This document shows positions 23,984 to 35,797 of a DNA stretch of 35,797 bases, in pieces; within the stretch, counting starts at the first letter, position 1, and every line of letters starts with the position of its first letter. The stretch covers positions 1 through 35,797 of the forward strand of contig JAJYYB010000003.1 in NCBI GenBank assembly GCA_021801355.1, given 5' to 3'. A program made the position numbers and the translations under genes. Origin of the DNA: Microcaldota archaeon. Its GTDB lineage: Archaea > Micrarchaeota > Micrarchaeia > Micrarchaeales > Micrarchaeaceae. The notes beneath the pieces are model-generated. The model was not told the origin of the DNA. It did no database searches and worked only from the letters and a program-made list of their open reading frames with translations.

Positions 23984-25960
23984 CTACGTAGCGCCGACGT
24001 CAACCTTCTGCGAGAAGTTCGCCGTAATGACTGTTATGCACTGCCCTTTATTTGCGCCGCATGCAGGGCCCAATCCACCTATGTCAGCCGGATTCGCAAA
24101 TACATAACCTGCCCCGGAAACGGGCAATAGGTCTTGTTCAACGCTGCCCGATAGCTTCATCACTAAATCAACCTGCTGATACGGCCCTGCAACCTGAAGG
24201 CACTGGCACTCATCTAAATCCGTTCCTCCTGCCGATGTAGTGAGACCTACATGTCCATCCTTAAGTTCTGCTATAACCGTTGTATTACTAAATGCGATTT
24301 GACCATCTATATCAGTATATAGGCCCGCATTTGTTAGTGCTGATATTGTATCGTGGCACGTGAACTCTGTGGAAACCTTGAACGCAGCCTCGCCTAATCC
24401 TACGAGACTGGAACCTGATTCCGCGGCCGCGCCTAAACTTTCGGTCAGAACAGCGGCAACCTCGCTGCCGCACAGGAAAAAGTTCAGGCCACCCAGAGCA
24501 TCCTCAGTAGACGTGGCGGTATTATTCACAACTATAGCCGCATACGGTTGGCTCATATTTGGGAGATTAAAGACTGTTATTTTGTGCCCTGATAGAGACG
24601 TAGATAGATTGGTTACGGCGCCGCTAACCTGGGCTTGAGTAAGCATCTCATAGTAATTGCTCGCAGGAGTTAACTTTAATGTAAGCGCATAATAAAGCGG
24701 TGATGAGTCGTTAGGGCATAATGCGATGTTGCCAATGCACTGGCTCGCGCTCACCGTTATGCACGGACCTTCGCTGCCCAATGTCGGAGTAACCGGGCCG
24801 CCGCAGGTGGTTGTTGCATTCTCCGATATACTGGTCTTCGTGAAGTTTATCGTCACTACTGTTGTTCCGTCTACTTTAACTACTCCGGTCAGATTGGCAG
24901 TGTAATTCTGCGGCGCCGTCACTGTGTAGCCGTACGTGCCGTTCTGCACGTATAGATTTGATATGGAAGCGCCTGTTGTATTCTGCACCACGCCATCGAA
25001 GTCTACGCCCCACTGCAGGACCCCGCAATCCCAAGAGAACCAGCAGCCAGGCGTGGGCGGCAATCCAGTTTCGGTGAAAGTGACTTCATAGTCACCGCCG
25101 CAGCCGAAAAATATGAGGAATTTTTCGCACACCGCGGAGCCGTTCTGAGCAATTGTGGTAGTGGTCGTGAATGTGCTGCTTATGGCCGTTGTGCTGGTTG
25201 TAATCGTTGTAGTCGTGGCCTGGCTGCACGGGGCATTCGATGGAGATCCGACTGGGCCCGCCATTCCGATGAAGTTAAGTTGATATGAATCAGGTGTAGA
25301 GGCGCTCACTTGGATGTATAATGCATTCAGTGCGGATGAATTTTTAGGGTAAGTTGAATATGCCGTGCCTCCGCAGTTGGACAGACCGTAAATTTGGTAG
25401 GTGCCATATTGCAGCTGCGCGGTTATGGACCCTTGTGAAGGCCATGTTGCGTTAAGTATTTGGGTGGTAGAAGATGACGTGCCTAACGGTGTTATTATCA
25501 CTGACCAAGGTCTCTGTTGGCCCTGTGGTAACCCATGAGCTACGAAAGTGACCTGCACCGATGGCGGAACTAGGCCATTTAGAGTTTTGTTGACTGCTAC
25601 GTCATTCCCTCCTTCGCAGAACGTTTGATTGGTCAGTGTATATTCAGGGTATACAGTCGTAGGGCCTCCTACAGTGAAAGTGCCATTGCTGCCAACGAAA
25701 GACCCGCCACCATTGAGTTCGTACTGGTAAGAGCCTGCGTGGAGCAGGAACGTCGCTGATTTGTTATACGGAAACGTTGCAACTGTCGTATTGGATGCGC
25801 ACACTTTAGGCGAAAGCCTCTGCGCGCTGACCTCCCACCAGAAAGGACTCTGTTCTGCATTGGTGCACAACCCTGTGGGAATGAACGTGACAGGATAAAG
25901 CGCGCCCAATGAAGCGTTGACAGTGCATTGCACGCTCACAGCGTTATAAGCCCCCCGCAT
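23984..25960 (-). CDS. Large secreted protein with VTFxETGLP-type domains, signal peptide disconnected
   Basis: As read, 658 residues from an ATG with no Shine-Dalgarno and no signal peptide. Three related beta domains are visible: about 20-115 (Y-P-V-T-F-I-P-T-G-L-C), about 135-230 (V-Q-V-T-F-V-A-H-G-L-P) and about 290-375 (Y-E-V-T-F-T-E-T-G-L-P, Q-W-G-V-D-F-D-G, N-G-T-Y-G-Y-T-V-T-A-P-Q-N-Y-T). A Thr-rich linker, probably glycosylated, lies at about 248-272. The C-terminal 270 residues (from about 390) are a distinct region with several Cys and no TM helix. The normal N-terminus appears to lie upstream at 25974-26051, cut off by a stop codon and a frameshift, so the gene may be inactive or recently broken. 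Propeller genes follow closely in the same direction. Confidence 0.75.
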   Translation of the reverse strand: MRGAYNAVSVQCTVNASLGALYPVTFIPTGLCTNAEQSPFWWEVSAQRLSPKVCASNTTVATFPYNKSATFLLHAGSYQYELNGGGSFVGSNGTFTVGGPTTVYPEYTLTNQTFCEGGNDVAVNKTLNGLVPPSVQVTFVAHGLPQGQQRPWSVIITPLGTSSSTTQILNATWPSQGSITAQLQYGTYQIYGLSNCGGTAYSTYPKNSSALNALYIQVSASTPDSYQLNFIGMAGPVGSPSNAPCSQATTTTITTSTTAISSTFTTTTTIAQNGSAVCEKFLIFFGCGGDYEVTFTETGLPPTPGCWFSWDCGVLQWGVDFDGVVQNTTGASISNLYVQNGTYGYTVTAPQNYTANLTGVVKVDGTTVVTINFTKTSISENATTTCGGPVTPTLGSEGPCITVSASQCIGNIALCPNDSSPLYYALTLKLTPASNYYEMLTQAQVSGAVTNLSTSLSGHKITVFNLPNMSQPYAAIVVNNTATSTEDALGGLNFFLCGSEVAAVLTESLGAAAESGSSLVGLGEAAFKVSTEFTCHDTISALTNAGLYTDIDGQIAFSNTTVIAELKDGHVGLTTSAGGTDLDECQCLQVAGPYQQVDLVMKLSGSVEQDLLPVSGAGYVFANPADIGGLGPACGANKGQCITVITANFSQKVDVGAT

Positions 25961-26285: not shown

Positions 26286-26906
26286 TTACTTCGGGACCTC
26301 GATCTTTGCCTCGAAATCCTCGACCCTGTACTTGAACTCGTCGTCGGTCTTTATCGCGCCCTTAGACTTAAGTACTTCCCTCGCGAGGAGGTAGTATATG
26401 AAGGCCAGCGACTTTCTTCCCCTGTTGTTTGCTGGTATTATAAGGTCGAGGAACTTAGTCGAGTTGTCGGTGTCGCTGAGCGCTATTATTGGCATGTTTA
26501 CCTTGCTGGCCTCCTTTATGGCCTGCTTCTCGTTCCTTGAATCGCTTATCACTATGAGCCTCGGCTCCGTGAAGTCCTTCCTGTTCGGGTTTGTGAATAT
26601 TCCGGGTGTGACCCTGCCCTTTATGAACTTGGCGCCTATTATCTCTGCGAACTTATCTGCGGCCGCTATTGCGTATACCCTAGAAGCAGTGACTATTATG
26701 TCCTTCGGCTCATATCTTCCGACCATCGAGGCAGCGGTCTTTATCCTCGTGTCTATGGTCTTGAGGTCGAACAGGTACAGACCGTCCTCCCTTATCTTGT
26801 ATATGAACTTCTTCATGCCCGGGCTCTTCACCTTCGTGGCTATGTGTATTCCCGCCTCGAGGTAGGCACTCTGGGTTGCAAGAAGATTCTCATCATTTTC
26901 TGGCAT
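26286..26906 (-). CDS. rps2: 30S ribosomal protein uS2
   Basis: A small-subunit protein at the head/body junction. Recognised from Y-L-E-A-G-I-H-I-A-T-K-V-K (about 15-27), I-Y-K-I-R-E-D-G-L-Y-L-F-D-L, R-V-T-P-G-I-F-T-N-P and E-P-R-L-I-V-I-S-D-S-R, with the closing N-N-R-G-R-K-S-L-A-F-I-Y-Y-L-L-A-R-E-V-L. From the ATG at 26906 it has 206 residues, typical for archaea. CAGGTG lies 7 nt before this ATG, directly at the 3' end of tRNA-Pro; the longer ORF from 26963 would run through the tRNA and is rejected. It is the last gene of the rpoD operon. Confidence 0.96.
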   Translation of the reverse strand: MPENDENLLATQSAYLEAGIHIATKVKSPGMKKFIYKIREDGLYLFDLKTIDTRIKTAASMVGRYEPKDIIVTASRVYAIAAADKFAEIIGAKFIKGRVTPGIFTNPNRKDFTEPRLIVISDSRNEKQAIKEASKVNMPIIALSDTDNSTKFLDLIIPANNRGRKSLAFIYYLLAREVLKSKGAIKTDDEFKYRVEDFEAKIEVPK

Positions 26907-26918
26907 ATTAAACACCTG

Positions 26919-27025
26919 TGGGGCCGCCGAGATTTTCAATTTCTTTTTGAATTCCCGAGGCATTGTAGCCTACTCGGGTCGCCACCACCCCAAGGTGGAA
27001 GCCTACCAAGCTAGCAGACGGCCCC
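26919..27025 (-). tRNA. tRNA-Pro(GGG) with about 34 extra nt in the T arm
   Basis: Acceptor strands GGGGCCG (27025-27019) and CGGCCCC (26926-26920) pair perfectly, with A73 at 26919. The D arm reads GCT-AGCTTGGTA-GGC with the usual A14, G18G19 and A21; position 10 against 25 is a U-U mismatch. The anticodon arm is CCACC-TTGGGGT-GGTGG, anticodon GGG. A four-nt variable loop precedes the T stem CCGAG (26977-26973) and CTCGG (26931-26927). Between these stem strands lie 41 nt instead of 7. Removing 34 nt gives a 73-nt tRNA. CCCG-AGT-AGGC...GCCT-CGGG at the 5' side resembles half of a bulge-helix-bulge and would place a cut right after G53. The 3' junction is unresolved: a single 34-nt excision leaves no C56. 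Confidence 0.8.
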
Positions 27026-30728: not shown

Positions 30729-33700
30729 TCAGATACTGTCCGTTACCTTCTTTACGCGCCTGAGTATTATCCGGTTCTCATTCTTTATGAGCGGATGCAC
30801 GTTCTCGCGCTTGCTCTTGGACCGCAGCACAACACCTACGTTATCGTAGGACTTTAGTATGCGGCCAAAGTCGCTGTCTGAATCCAAGATAACTACGCGT
30901 ACCCTTTGTTGGTTGGCCAGGGATGCTATGGCTTTCATCTCTCTCTTTTCTGCGACTCCGCTGTTGATTACGACGGCCCATGCGTTCTTCTTGCTGATCA
31001 TCAGCCTGACGTCCCTTACCCCGGTCACGGACCACCCGTTGGAAAGGCCCCATACCAGGCGGGTGACTATATCCTTGTTGTTCCTGTGCCTTTTGAGCAG
31101 TATAAACGGTGGTAAAAGCGCCGCGACAAGTATTATCAAGAAGCCGTAAGCCGCTATTGCGTCTGCCAGGTGTACCGGATACGCGAGGATGTCGCTTATA
31201 ACGGTAATGATGGAATCACCAATTTTGTAATTGTATGTGATGGAAGCCGCGCTGTAGTTGGCGTTGCCGGATGTCTCGAAGGCGTAATCATACGTGCCTG
31301 GATTCACCTCTGTCGAATTCATCTTTGAGTAGGTCGATCCCATGGAGACGTTGTTGATGACCATGGTCGCTTGCAACTGGTTATGTATACTGATTACCTC
31401 TGCTATGGTGGTGCATCCAAGCCCATCGTACGTGTAATTGGCGCACTCATGGAGGAATACTAACTGCGGTGTGTACTTCGGCCTTATGTAGAAGACCGTC
31501 GAATAGTTGTCTGTCACAGTGTCCAATCCAGTTATGGTGTAGGTGCCTGGGAGCAGTTGGGACAGGTTGTATCTTGCTACGCCGGTGCCGCTTGAAAGCA
31601 GCTTGCCGCCAGTAAGCAGTGCAACATTATCTGACGTATTGGAGCTTGTGGCCGTAATGGTTGAGTTCTTGATTGTGATGTACACTGTGGAGTTGAGCGG
31701 CTTTGGCGCGACAGGGATACTCTGCCCGCACAGTTGCAGTTCCACAGTATGCAGTATTGGCACGTACGATACATTGATGAGTTCCAGAGTGAAGTTTGTG
31801 GTGTTTGTGTGCGCTATCAACGTCTTCTGGCCGAGATAGGTGTTATAGGTGGCGTTGTTATTTATTATTTCGGTTGAGTAGTTCGTGCTTATGACCGACT
31901 CGTATACGAAGAACGATCTTTCTAGCGATGGGAAGTAGACAGTTGCATGGCTGAACGTAGCGAATCTTGTTATAAGGTAGCACGCCGGACCGTCCTGTAT
32001 GACCTGTGGTCCGCTTGCGCCGCCAGGGGTGGTAGAATTGACTGGCCCTCCTCCGCCGCCGAAGCCGCCGCCACCGCCACCGCTCACTGGTGCGGCTTTT
32101 GGTATTACATCTACGTTTGTCTTTGATATGTTGAAAACATATGGCGGCGATGTCCCAGTATCAGTAATTACTGACTCCAACGATGTGACGCCTGTCGTGT
32201 TGAACCCCAGATCAAAGGTAGCTGACCCACCACCAATAGGTATCGTGTTGGTAGCTATCGTAGTCGGATCTAGTTTCTCTATGTCGACTATAAACGGCCC
32301 TACGCCGTAACCTGAAGGCACGGTGACGTTAAGCGTTACATAACTGCCTTGCGTTATGGTCACGTTGACTATCGAATTTTGGGTTGCGGCAGTAGATGTA
32401 GTGCCATTTATTACAATCTGGTTCGCGGTGAAACTGTAAACATTCACAGAATTAGAAGTCGGAGGAGATATTGCATTCTCTGTAGTATTGGCATCGTCTA
32501 TTACATTCAAGGCGAATAGGTAATTACCGGGTGTGGTCAGCGAATTTGTTGCAAACTGGCACAATACAGTGTTGCCAGCGATCTGGTTTGAGCCGCTAGG
32601 TACTGCGCACAGCGTTGAGTTGGCTGCCATAAAGACTAATGAACCAGGAGGCTGGACTAACCAGTTGTAGGTAAACGGCGGAGTGCCGGTATTAGGCATT
32701 GTTCCTTCTATAGTAGAAAGCTGGCCTTGATCGATAGTCACATTATTTATTGTGGGAGAGGAGGGAGGAGTAAGTTCGGGTTTCACAGCAACCGTAGGGG
32801 ATGCGGATGAGGTCGCGCTTTCCGATACGGTGGCGGAATCGGCCACTTGGAGCTCGAAATTGTAGTCATTGCCGCCAGAAAGCGTATTGCCCGGTATGCT
32901 GCATGTCACGACATTGCCAGCAATCTGGTTGGAGCCGCTGTTGGACGCGCACTTTGTTGCTACAGAATACGCGCCGCCGTTGGTTGACATGAGCCATGCG
33001 TAGGAATATAGCGGTGTACCGGTTGATGGGATCACATCGGTTATTGAAGACGGCTGATCTTGGTCAAGTCTCGATGCGGATATGGTAGGCGCTTGTATAG
33101 TGGTGAGTGCGGACTGAACGTGCACCGCATTCGAATGTATGGAGTTTGTCGTTGTTCCAGAAAGATCGGTAACCTGGAGCTCGAAATTGTAGGTGTTGCC
33201 TACGGTAAGTGTGTTTGGCGGTATGCTACAGAGTACGGTATTTCCATAAGCTTCGTTTGTTCCGCTATTAGTAATGCATTGGGTAGCGATAGAATAGAGG
33301 CTGTTGCTATTAGTTGAAACAAGCCAATTATAGCTGAATGGCGAGATGCCGTTGGAGGGCATTACTCCGTTTATGGTTTCGTTCTGATTCACATCCAAAT
33401 ACGGTGCATAAACTGATGGCTGCTGCGCCGTTGCAGTGCTTCCAACGGTTATTGTCTGTGAGGCTTGTGAGGTCGCGCTTTCCGATACGGTGGCGGAATC
33501 GGTCACTTGGAGCTCGAAATTGTAGTCATTGCCGCCGGAAAGCGTATTGCCCGATATGCTGCATGTCACGACATTGCCAGCAATCTGGTTGGAGCCGCTG
33601 TTGGACGCGCACTTTGTTGCTACAGAATACGCGCCGCCGTTGGTTGACATGAGCCATGCGTAGGAATATAGCGGTGTACCGGTAGAGGGTATGTTGGCAG

Positions 33701-35797
33701 TTATTGTCTCGGCTTCGCCTACATTGATTACGTTTGCTGAAACCGATGGCTGCAAAGGTGCAGAGATGGGTGATGACACGACTATGTTTGAAGATACCGT
33801 TGAGTTGGCAGTTTGCGGAATTGATGAAGAGTCATTGACATGTAATTCTAAGGTGTAGGTATCACCTGCCGTAAGGGAATTCGCGGGTATGCTGCATGTC
33901 ACGACATTGCCAGCAATCTGGTTGGAGCCGCTGTTGGACGCGCACTTTGTTGCTACAGAATACGCGCCGCCGTTGGTTGACATGAGCCATGCGTAGGAAT
34001 ATAGCGGTGTACCGGTAGAGGGCATTATTCCAGTTACGCTCTCAACTTGATCCGAATCGAGCTTTGGAGCGGATATGGACGGTTGGCTTGGGGCAGTCAA
34101 TGCCTTATTCAGCACCATAGAATTCGGCAATGAGGTAACTATTACATGTGTAGACGCATTGTCGCTTACCTGAAGTTCAAACATATAGTTACCAGTTGCC
34201 GTGCTGGGAGTAGTGGCGAACGAGCACGTGACCGTGTTGCCCGCCATCTGGTTGAAACCTGATTGGGTTGCGCACTCGGATGCAGTAACGAATGGACCGC
34301 CGTTAAGCGAAGCCAGCCACGTATAGGCATATTGTGGACTTCCCGTCGATGGTATCGTGTCTGTAATTGTTGCAGTCTGACCCTGATCCAGTATCGGATA
34401 TATTACGGTTGGCTCGTAAGGTGATGTCAGCGCAGTATCTACGATTACAGTGTTAGAGCCAGAAGCGGCGCTTTCCGGGTTATATGCAGCGTCTGAGACA
34501 TTTAGCTCAAAGAGGTAGTTGCCGGTTGCGATTAAAGTGTTAGTGACGAACGAGCAGGTGACCACGTTGCCAGCAATCTGGTTGGAGCCGCTAGGTACTG
34601 CGCACAGCGTTGAGTTGGCTGCAATGAAATTGCCGGATCCTGGAATTTTAACAAGCCATTTGTATGAATACGGGGATGTGCCGCTAGTAGGAATCGTGCC
34701 GATAAGCGTAGCAGTTTGATTCTGGTCAATCTTTTTGTTTAGCACTATTGGCGTTGAAGGAGCTATCAGACTATTGCTTACAGAGACCAAATCATTTGCC
34801 GATTGGTTGGTTACAGGGGTGAATGCATTGTCCGTTACAGTATAGCAGAAATAGGTGTTGGACGTAGGTGATGGCGCATATGTCGGGAAGGTGGTCAATG
34901 CTGAAGTCCAATAGGCAGAACCACATATTGTTGATGAATGTGGGGGTGATTCCGTGTAATACCACTCATATGTGTATGGAGGCGTGCCGCCAGATACGTT
35001 AACGCTAAGGGTTATCTGCTGACCGCTATCGGTTTTTGGACGTACCGGATTTGGAATGCCTGCCAACAGCGCCGGTTTTACATTTACCAGCACATTGCCC
35101 GATGTCATTGTAACCGGAGAGACGGAGTTGTCCGTGACCGTGTAGCAGAACAGGGTGTTGGACGTAGGGGCGTTGGTGACCGTGGATGAGGTGCCGGATG
35201 CCACCACTGAGTTGGCCGCGCCGCAGCTGCCGCCAGTGGAGCTGTACCACTGGTATGCATATGGTGCCGTTCCTTCGGAAGGATGTGCGGTAATGGTTAT
35301 GCTCTGGCCGAGATCTATCTCTGGACTGGATGTTGTAGCATTGCCTGCGATTAGGTCTGGGTTGACCGTTACGATCACGTTAACTGACGTCACTGTAGGG
35401 GCATTGGACGAAGTGTCTGTGACAGTGTAGCAGAATATTGTGTTCGAAATTGGCGAATTTGTGAGTGTGACGGAGTTGCCCGAAGCGACAGGAGTGCTGG
35501 ATGAGCTGCACGATCCTGTGGTCGTACTGTACCACTGGTATGTGTAAGAACCTGTGCCGCCCGATTCATTCGCGGTTAGGGTTATAGGCTGGCCTGAATC
35601 GATTGCGGGACTTGATGGTGTTGGTTTGCCCGCCACCAAGGCATTGTTCACGGTTACGGTTGAGTGCCCGGATGTAACTACTGGAGCGTTGGTTGATGTG
35701 TCCGTGACCGTGTAGCAGAACAGGGTGTTGGACGTAGGGGCGTTGGTGACCGTGGATGAGGTGCCGGATGCCACCACTGAGTTGGCCGCGCCGCAGC
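30729..35797 (-). CDS. Giant modular surface protein (Ig/PKD-like repeats), 5' end beyond the window
   Basis: The frame is open at the right edge, so the signal peptide and an unknown number of modules are missing. About 1,689 codons are visible. The N-terminal part has modules of about 95 residues (G-Q-x-I-T-L-x-A..., Y-x-Y-Q-W-Y, F-C-Y-T-V-T-D), then modules of about 110 residues (T-G-T-P-L-Y-S-Y-A-W-L, V-V-T-C-S-I, F-E-L-Q-V-T-D), each with a Cys pair. A Gly-rich hinge (about 32050-32090) leads to a distinct ectodomain. A TM helix (G-F-L-I-I-L-V-A-A-L-L-P-P-F-I-L-L, about 31095-31145) is followed by 121 cytoplasmic residues. Probably an adhesin or S-layer-like scaffold. Neighbouring modules share near-identical DNA. 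Confidence 0.85.
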   Translation of the reverse strand, partial: CGAANSVVASGTSSTVTNAPTSNTLFCYTVTDTSTNAPVVTSGHSTVTVNNALVAGKPTPSSPAIDSGQPITLTANESGGTGSYTYQWYSTTTGSCSSSSTPVASGNSVTLTNSPISNTIFCYTVTDTSSNAPTVTSVNVIVTVNPDLIAGNATTSSPEIDLGQSITITAHPSEGTAPYAYQWYSSTGGSCGAANSVVASGTSSTVTNAPTSNTLFCYTVTDNSVSPVTMTSGNVLVNVKPALLAGIPNPVRPKTDSGQQITLSVNVSGGTPPYTYEWYYTESPPHSSTICGSAYWTSALTTFPTYAPSPTSNTYFCYTVTDNAFTPVTNQSANDLVSVSNSLIAPSTPIVLNKKIDQNQTATLIGTIPTSGTSPYSYKWLVKIPGSGNFIAANSTLCAVPSGSNQIAGNVVTCSFVTNTLIATGNYLFELNVSDAAYNPESAASGSNTVIVDTALTSPYEPTVIYPILDQGQTATITDTIPSTGSPQYAYTWLASLNGGPFVTASECATQSGFNQMAGNTVTCSFATTPSTATGNYMFELQVSDNASTHVIVTSLPNSMVLNKALTAPSQPSISAPKLDSDQVESVTGIMPSTGTPLYSYAWLMSTNGGAYSVATKCASNSGSNQIAGNVVTCSIPANSLTAGDTYTLELHVNDSSSIPQTANSTVSSNIVVSSPISAPLQPSVSANVINVGEAETITANIPSTGTPLYSYAWLMSTNGGAYSVATKCASNSGSNQIAGNVVTCSISGNTLSGGNDYNFELQVTDSATVSESATSQASQTITVGSTATAQQPSVYAPYLDVNQNETINGVMPSNGISPFSYNWLVSTNSNSLYSIATQCITNSGTNEAYGNTVLCSIPPNTLTVGNTYNFELQVTDLSGTTTNSIHSNAVHVQSALTTIQAPTISASRLDQDQPSSITDVIPSTGTPLYSYAWLMSTNGGAYSVATKCASNSGSNQIAGNVVTCSIPGNTLSGGNDYNFELQVADSATVSESATSSASPTVAVKPELTPPSSPTINNVTIDQGQLSTIEGTMPNTGTPPFTYNWLVQPPGSLVFMAANSTLCAVPSGSNQIAGNTVLCQFATNSLTTPGNYLFALNVIDDANTTENAISPPTSNSVNVYSFTANQIVINGTTSTAATQNSIVNVTITQGSYVTLNVTVPSGYGVGPFIVDIEKLDPTTIATNTIPIGGGSATFDLGFNTTGVTSLESVITDTGTSPPYVFNISKTNVDVIPKAAPVSGGGGGGFGGGGGPVNSTTPGGASGPQVIQDGPACYLITRFATFSHATVYFPSLERSFFVYESVISTNYSTEIINNNATYNTYLGQKTLIAHTNTTNFTLELINVSYVPILHTVELQLCGQSIPVAPKPLNSTVYITIKNSTITATSSNTSDNVALLTGGKLLSSGTGVARYNLSQLLPGTYTITGLDTVTDNYSTVFYIRPKYTPQLVFLHECANYTYDGLGCTTIAEVISIHNQLQATMVINNVSMGSTYSKMNSTEVNPGTYDYAFETSGNANYSAASITYNYKIGDSIITVISDILAYPVHLADAIAAYGFLIILVAALLPPFILLKRHRNNKDIVTRLVWGLSNGWSVTGVRDVRLMISKKNAWAVVINSGVAEKREMKAIASLANQQRVRVVILDSDSDFGRILKSYDNVGVVLRSKSKRENVHPLIKNENRIILRRVKKVTDSI
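32809..33023. repeat. Long intragenic repeat, copy A
   Basis: 215 bp that recur at 33469-33683 with three mismatches, exactly 660 bp (220 codons, two modules) apart. The translation gives the same Y-S-Y-A-W-L-M-S-T-N-G-G module core. Confidence 0.9.
33469..33689. repeat. Long intragenic repeat, copy B
   Basis: Matches copy A over 33469-33683. Its second half, 33555-33689, is also identical to 33888-34022 (copy C), 333 bp (111 codons, one module) away. Confidence 0.9.
33888..34022. repeat. Long intragenic repeat, copy C
   Basis: 135 bp identical to 33555-33689, covering the same module core. The flanking sequence differs, so the copied unit is shorter than the module. Confidence 0.9.
35131..35227. 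repeat. Intragenic repeat, first copy of the edge pair
   Basis: 97 bp identical to 35701-35797, 570 bp (190 codons, two 95-residue modules) away. Encodes the Cys-containing core of a PKD-like module. Confidence 0.9.
35701..35797. repeat. Intragenic repeat, second copy running off the window
   Basis: Identical to 35131-35227 up to the last base of the window, so the repeat may continue beyond the edge. Confidence 0.9.

Follow-up and report, generated by a model that had tools for sequence, protein, structure and literature searches.

The gene at positions 26919 to 27025 of the window (the whole 35,797-nt stretch of Micrarchaeota DNA that was analysed) is best read as a functional tRNA-Pro(GGG) gene whose T arm carries two small bulge-helix-bulge (BHB) introns, A and B, which would be removed in that order by a splicing endonuclease (EndA) of the epsilon2 type; we put the probability of this reading at about 0.93. 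The first-pass annotation had described a tRNA-Pro(GGG) whose T arm is interrupted by about 34 nt, the T-stem strands being 41 nt apart where 7 nt are normal; this description holds, with an excess of 34 bases in the T loop. On the gene's strand the order is CCGAG, TAGGCTACAATGCCTCGGGAA (intron A), TTCAAA, AAGAAATTGAAAA (intron B) and T CTCGG. The features of the locus are as follows.

26919..27025, minus strand: the whole tRNA-Pro(GGG) gene, a pre-tRNA body measuring 107 nt, both introns included (from sequence, synteny, relatives and the sole Pro(GGG) match in the genome)
26973..27025, minus strand: exon 1, positions 1-53, with the acceptor 5' strand, D arm, anticodon arm, variable loop and CCGAG (18 distinct homologues, gapless alignment)
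26991-26989, minus strand: anticodon GGG
26952..26972, minus strand: intron A, 21 nt, at 53/54, T AGGC TACAAT GCCT CGGG AA (relatives supply 45 distinct versions of intron A)
26946..26951, minus strand: exon 2, TTCAAA, T-loop positions 54-59 (between A and B in all genomes with both introns)
26933..26945, minus strand: intron B, 13 nt, at 59/60, A AGAAAT TGAA AA (relatives supply 91 distinct versions of intron B; folding)
26919..26932, minus strand: exon 3, T60, the T-stem 3' strand CTCGG, the acceptor 3' strand CGGCCCC and A73 (sequence, relatives)
26286..26906, minus strand: rps2, for ribosomal protein uS2; 12 nt separate it from the tRNA upstream (conserved neighbour)

The tRNA begins with G1 at 27025 and ends at A73 (26919), CCA not being encoded. 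Its stems had been called intact, which is correct for the acceptor stem (7 bp), the anticodon stem (CCACC/GGTGG, loop TTGGGGT) and the T stem (CCGAG/CTCGG); the D stem has only three pairs, with a T.T mismatch in place of the fourth (10-25). In most relatives read at this locus the tRNA-Pro lies just upstream of rps2, and the anticodon stem shows compensatory changes across the 18 distinct homologues. This conserved place and these changes indicate that the tRNA is no chance structure. Almost every named genome that shares its 5' half is a Micrarchaeota MAG; a few records are labelled Marsarchaeota.

Using rps2 as an anchor, we reached the corresponding place in other genomes and read the tRNA there. 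Pattern searches in which the insert was free to vary, apart from one A, recovered the T region from 50 genomes, then with a wider pattern from 73 genomes in the phylum, and from 53 genomes in a sister family (f2); the wider pattern also caught genes with A32 (loop ATGGGGT), some of which carry intron A only. Of 125 Micrarchaeota genomes in which the corresponding gene was assignable, 43 have both introns, 66 have B only, 11 have A only and 5 have neither; G264, G266 and the Micrarchaeum locus L206, with T-loop inserts at other junctions, stand outside this count. An alignment of the locus across relatives had been proposed as a check, and it was these four states that revealed the boundaries, so that the predicted intron/exon junctions, like the conserved pairing elements, are established by comparison. 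The two introns account for the whole excess (21 + 13 = 34 nt), and their precise removal leaves CCGAG-TTCAAAT-CTCGG, a normal T arm equal to that of intron-less relatives; in three of these from the same family (G007, G140 and G142) the T loop is TTCAAAT, identical to the predicted spliced loop.

A few corresponding loci look different. In Candidatus Micrarchaeum sp. SulCav (L206) and in L142 (G266) the tRNA-Pro has a longer T-loop insert, starting with TTCAAGAAAC and ending with TTGAACAAAT or TTGAATAAAT, and these ends point to an intron whose junction is slightly shifted; in L206 it is roughly 90 nt long. Upstream of rps2 in L064 (G015) only the 3' part of a tRNA-Pro is found, from GGCATGGGTGCCAG onwards and with a B-type insert; nearby on the opposite strand is a tRNA-Pro(GGG)-like gene with no T-arm intron, a possible replacement of the interrupted one.

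The ends of both introns pair with the adjacent exon in a 4-bp helix, and 3-nt bulges hold the cuts, as is characteristic of archaeal BHB introns. For intron A the central helix is formed by exon CCCG (26978-26975; positions 48-51) and intron CGGG (26957-26954), the bulges are AG^T and AA^T, with the cut following the second base in both, and the inner helix is AGGC/GCCT. The CCCG-AGT-AGGC/GCCT-CGGG element with a bulge after G53, recognized in the first-pass annotation, is thus the motif of intron A, and the second junction, said there not to form a classic bulge-helix-bulge, is located at CGGG-AA^T, immediately before TTCAAA. The outer helix consists of GA/TC only, which makes the motif relaxed rather than a strict hBHBh'. 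Folding also allows the CT of intron A to pair with exon AG (p 0.43), in which case the first bulge would close. Among the 45 distinct A introns of relatives, GGG is present in every one, 38 end in CGGGAA and the last two A are each conserved at 98%, while the interior varies in sequence and in length (11-35 nt in total). The interiors nevertheless retain terminal pairing, with 79 pairs compared to a mean of 22 in 2000 shuffles (maximum 43), although several A introns in other genomes lack an inner helix.

With intron A removed, intron B is framed by the T stem CCGAG/CTCGG as outer helix and by TTCA (26951-26948) paired with TGAA (26938-26935) as central helix. The TTCAAA stretch from 26951, earlier noticed inside the insert, is therefore exon 2, located between the introns. 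The bulges are AA^A and AA^T, and the inner hairpin is minimal (A-GAAA-T, one pair closing a tetraloop), so that this motif, too, is relaxed rather than a strict hBHBh'. The exact cut lies inside a run of A and could slide by some bases with the same product. All 91 distinct B introns of relatives have TG, the three A that follow TG are each conserved at 95-96%, and 66 introns end in TGAAAA; lengths range from 11 to 32 nt and the interior varies, again with far more terminal pairing than in shuffled sequences (215 against a mean of 45, maximum 72 in 2000 shuffles). Most other bases in the exon-pairing 3' parts of the A and B introns are conserved at 89% or more.

The genome has one splicing endonuclease, which would make these cuts. 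Two matches to PF01974 fall in a single frame, giving one EndA of 388 aa, whose best PDB match is the ARMAN-2 EndA 4fz2 (E 2e-175, aligned over 6-388). Its residues Y237, H252, K283 and K162 match Y236, H251, K282 and K161 of ARMAN-2, which are the catalytic Tyr/His/Lys and the Lys of the ARMAN-specific loop, ASL (PMC6379350). Judged from its sequence (a single chain of about 390 aa with alphaN-alpha-betaC units, the catalytic Y/H/K and the ASL lysine), it is an EndA of the epsilon2 type, a type with broad specificity that includes relaxed motifs (PMC4033280, PMC12397907). It counts against the preferred reading that the enzyme would have to accept relaxed motifs, given the minimal inner hairpin of B and the A introns of other genomes with no inner helix.

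To compare the uncut RNA with the RNA minus intron A, we folded both with the cloverleaf imposed; unconstrained folding of the precursor gave no cloverleaf and was not counted as evidence. In the uncut RNA the helix of A had p 0.986, against p 0.000 for the T stem, whereas after removal of A the T stem reached p 0.795 and TTCA/TGAA p 0.891. Forcing the uncut RNA into the T stem plus the B helix cost 6.9 kcal/mol. Since intron A lies exactly between the outer and the central helix of the B motif, and since its own motif occupies the T-stem strand, the order is probably A first and B second; in this model the B motif would form only after A is gone, which is the mark of nested introns.

The same values bear on the alternative that the two introns are removed independently or B first, EndA then accepting the B motif with no outer helix. 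TTCA/TGAA alone does pair in the uncut RNA with p about 0.71, and the epsilon2-type EndA tolerates relaxed motifs (PMC4033280, PMC12397907), but the location of A precisely at the joint of the B outer helix and the central helix, together with the T stem at p 0.000 for as long as A is present, makes this alternative unlikely. Under the preferred order, A then B, intron A would fold with its CGGG on exon CCCG (48-51) and be cut at AG^T and AA^T, whereupon CCGAG would be joined to TTCAAA. The T stem CCGAG/CTCGG would then form beside TTCA/TGAA and complete the B motif, and cuts at AA^A and AA^T would free intron B and leave the T loop TTCAAAT, the predicted spliced tRNA-Pro having the junction CCGAG-TTCAAATCTCGG. 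Exon ligation would be carried out by RtcB. The cutting of both introns in the cell and its order are likewise inferred. Two cuts, a relaxed motif or a degenerate tRNA had been offered as options at the outset; the evidence supports separate excision, except that two introns imply four cuts, and a degenerate tRNA is unlikely.

The notion of a degenerate pseudogene, or of a tRNA-like element outside translation, is favoured by the D-stem mismatch at T10.T25 and by the failure of tRNA finders. ARAGORN reported only a tRNA-Leu in the window and missed the tRNA-Pro(GGG), Rfam gave nothing above the cut-offs there, and when the whole genome (1.07 Mb, 21 contigs, 96% complete) was scanned for tRNAs with Rfam, the gene was missed as well. 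Such failure is expected of both ARAGORN and the Rfam tRNA model when the T arm is interrupted. The mismatch recurs in an intron-less relative (L073), the exons are conserved with covariation of the anticodon stem in 18 distinct homologues, and exact intron-less forms exist in relatives. Moreover, this is the sole tRNA-Pro(GGG) found in the 96% complete genome. A search for a second copy had been suggested: CTTGGGGTGG has a single exact match, in this gene, and with a covariance model for the 5' half the gene itself scored 83 bits and a tRNA-Pro(CGG) on contig C7 scored 45 bits, all further matches being tRNA-Gly genes, so that neither approach turned up another tRNA-Pro(GGG). A pseudogene is thus highly improbable. 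A tRNA-Pro(TGG) was likewise not found by these searches; it may be interrupted elsewhere or absent from the assembly. A single intron of about 34 nt with a relaxed motif and one pair of cuts would fit the excess of exactly 34 nt by the simpler route of one excision, but it deserves almost no credence, as one-step removal would give a T loop with no C56 and it is contradicted by relatives with A alone, B alone or no intron at these two sites, TTCAAA being conserved between them.

Two other long ORFs in the window, both on the minus strand, are 30729-35777 (1682 aa with repeated segments) and 23984-25960 (658 aa); their products are perhaps surface proteins.

A pattern for B-type introns matched five places in the genome, all of them tRNAs, while a reversed control pattern had 0 matches. 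In addition to Pro(GGG), B-type introns occur at 59/60 in Arg(TCT) (L213, C3:66175), Arg(TCG) (L214, C3:139173), Ser(GGA) (L216, C18:4632), which apparently has a second insert near the anticodon, and Arg(CCT) (L217, C21:112627). A similar T-loop insert was seen in tRNA-Leu(CAA) (L118). We also noted tRNA 3' halves (Ala, Glu, Gln, Lys) with no proper 5' half in this genome (L120, L121, L124, L126, L127, L128, L129 and L130), several of them with a similar sequence in front that resembles the start of an ORF (ATGAAGCTAGAAAACGA and alike); their appearance is that of attachment sites, or of what remains of elements that had integrated into tRNA genes.

In the sister family f2, the tRNA-Pro just upstream of rps2 has the loop TTAGGGA (once TTAGGGG) and hence the anticodon AGG with A34, in 53 genomes from 22 genera, examples being L222 (G038), L233 (G044) and L225 (G048). 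In the eight of these genomes that were examined closely, Pro(CGG), Pro(TGG) or both occur, Pro(GGG) was not found in any, and six of the eight have no match to the deaminase domain PF00383 (TadA fold). To our knowledge, A34 is generally unused in archaea. Its non-use has been stated for archaeal tRNA-Arg (PMC8450103). The f2 genomes are possibly an archaeal family that decodes with unmodified A34.

Nested introns in archaeal tRNAs, with a last motif that forms after removal of the others, are described in the cited passages of PMC3978253 (citing Sugahara 2007 and Tocchini-Valentini 2009) and PMC8450103. The present pair resembles such nested or multiple BHB introns in its close spacing, in a first removal that would precede the second motif, in its BHB-type boundaries and in its position outside the anticodon loop. 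Unlike those, which these passages describe mainly for Crenarchaeota (Thermoproteales) and Thaumarchaeota, it lies in a Micrarchaeota tRNA-Pro(GGG), at 53/54 and 59/60, with introns down to 11-13 nt and all four site combinations among relatives. Multiple-intron tRNAs are recorded for ARMAN-1 and ARMAN-2 in Table 1 of PMC4033280. ARMAN-2 (Candidatus Micrarchaeum acidiphilum) belongs to the same phylum and has the same epsilon2-type endonuclease, and multiple introns have already been reported for it. The ARMAN endonuclease and tRNAs are reportedly the subject of a 2011 paper by Fujishima. The kind is thus already known, and relative to the cited parts of PMC3978253, PMC8450103 and PMC4033280 our analysis adds this instance, the pair of sites 53/54 and 59/60, and the natural series of states.

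The recurrence of one intron kind at one site across several tRNAs in a genome recalls the transposed introns of Thermoproteales (Fujishima 2010, as cited in PMC4033280). Unlike in Thermoproteales, what the introns share here is chiefly their segment complementary to the conserved T loop, for which reason independent gain and transposition are indistinguishable. On an rps2 tree of 66 rows, intron A needs at least 9 changes and intron B at least 4, although few branches are firm and the firm branches alone force only one or two; G264 (L141) was coded there as having B despite its insert at another junction, which leaves the counts for the 125 genomes unaffected. Within the genus of the present genome, three species have A and two lack it. 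The 13-nt B of the window is identical to that of four sister-family genomes, which may reflect old inheritance or chance, the latter being conceivable because little of B is free to vary.

Tentatively, and with more doubt than confidence, the T arm of Micrarchaeota tRNA-Pro could be a recurrent landing site, where very short introns, alike in nothing but their exon-complementary stretch, have been gained and lost many times at 53/54 and 59/60; A would sit at the single site from which it controls the removal of B, and an obligatory two-step order would have been assembled repeatedly. A gene that appeared unspliceable becomes a clear-cut case of nested introns in a tRNA, and it explains why ARAGORN and the Rfam tRNA model miss probably essential tRNAs in such genomes. 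The natural series of A, B, both and neither in 125 genomes makes order-dependent splicing and intron turnover testable.
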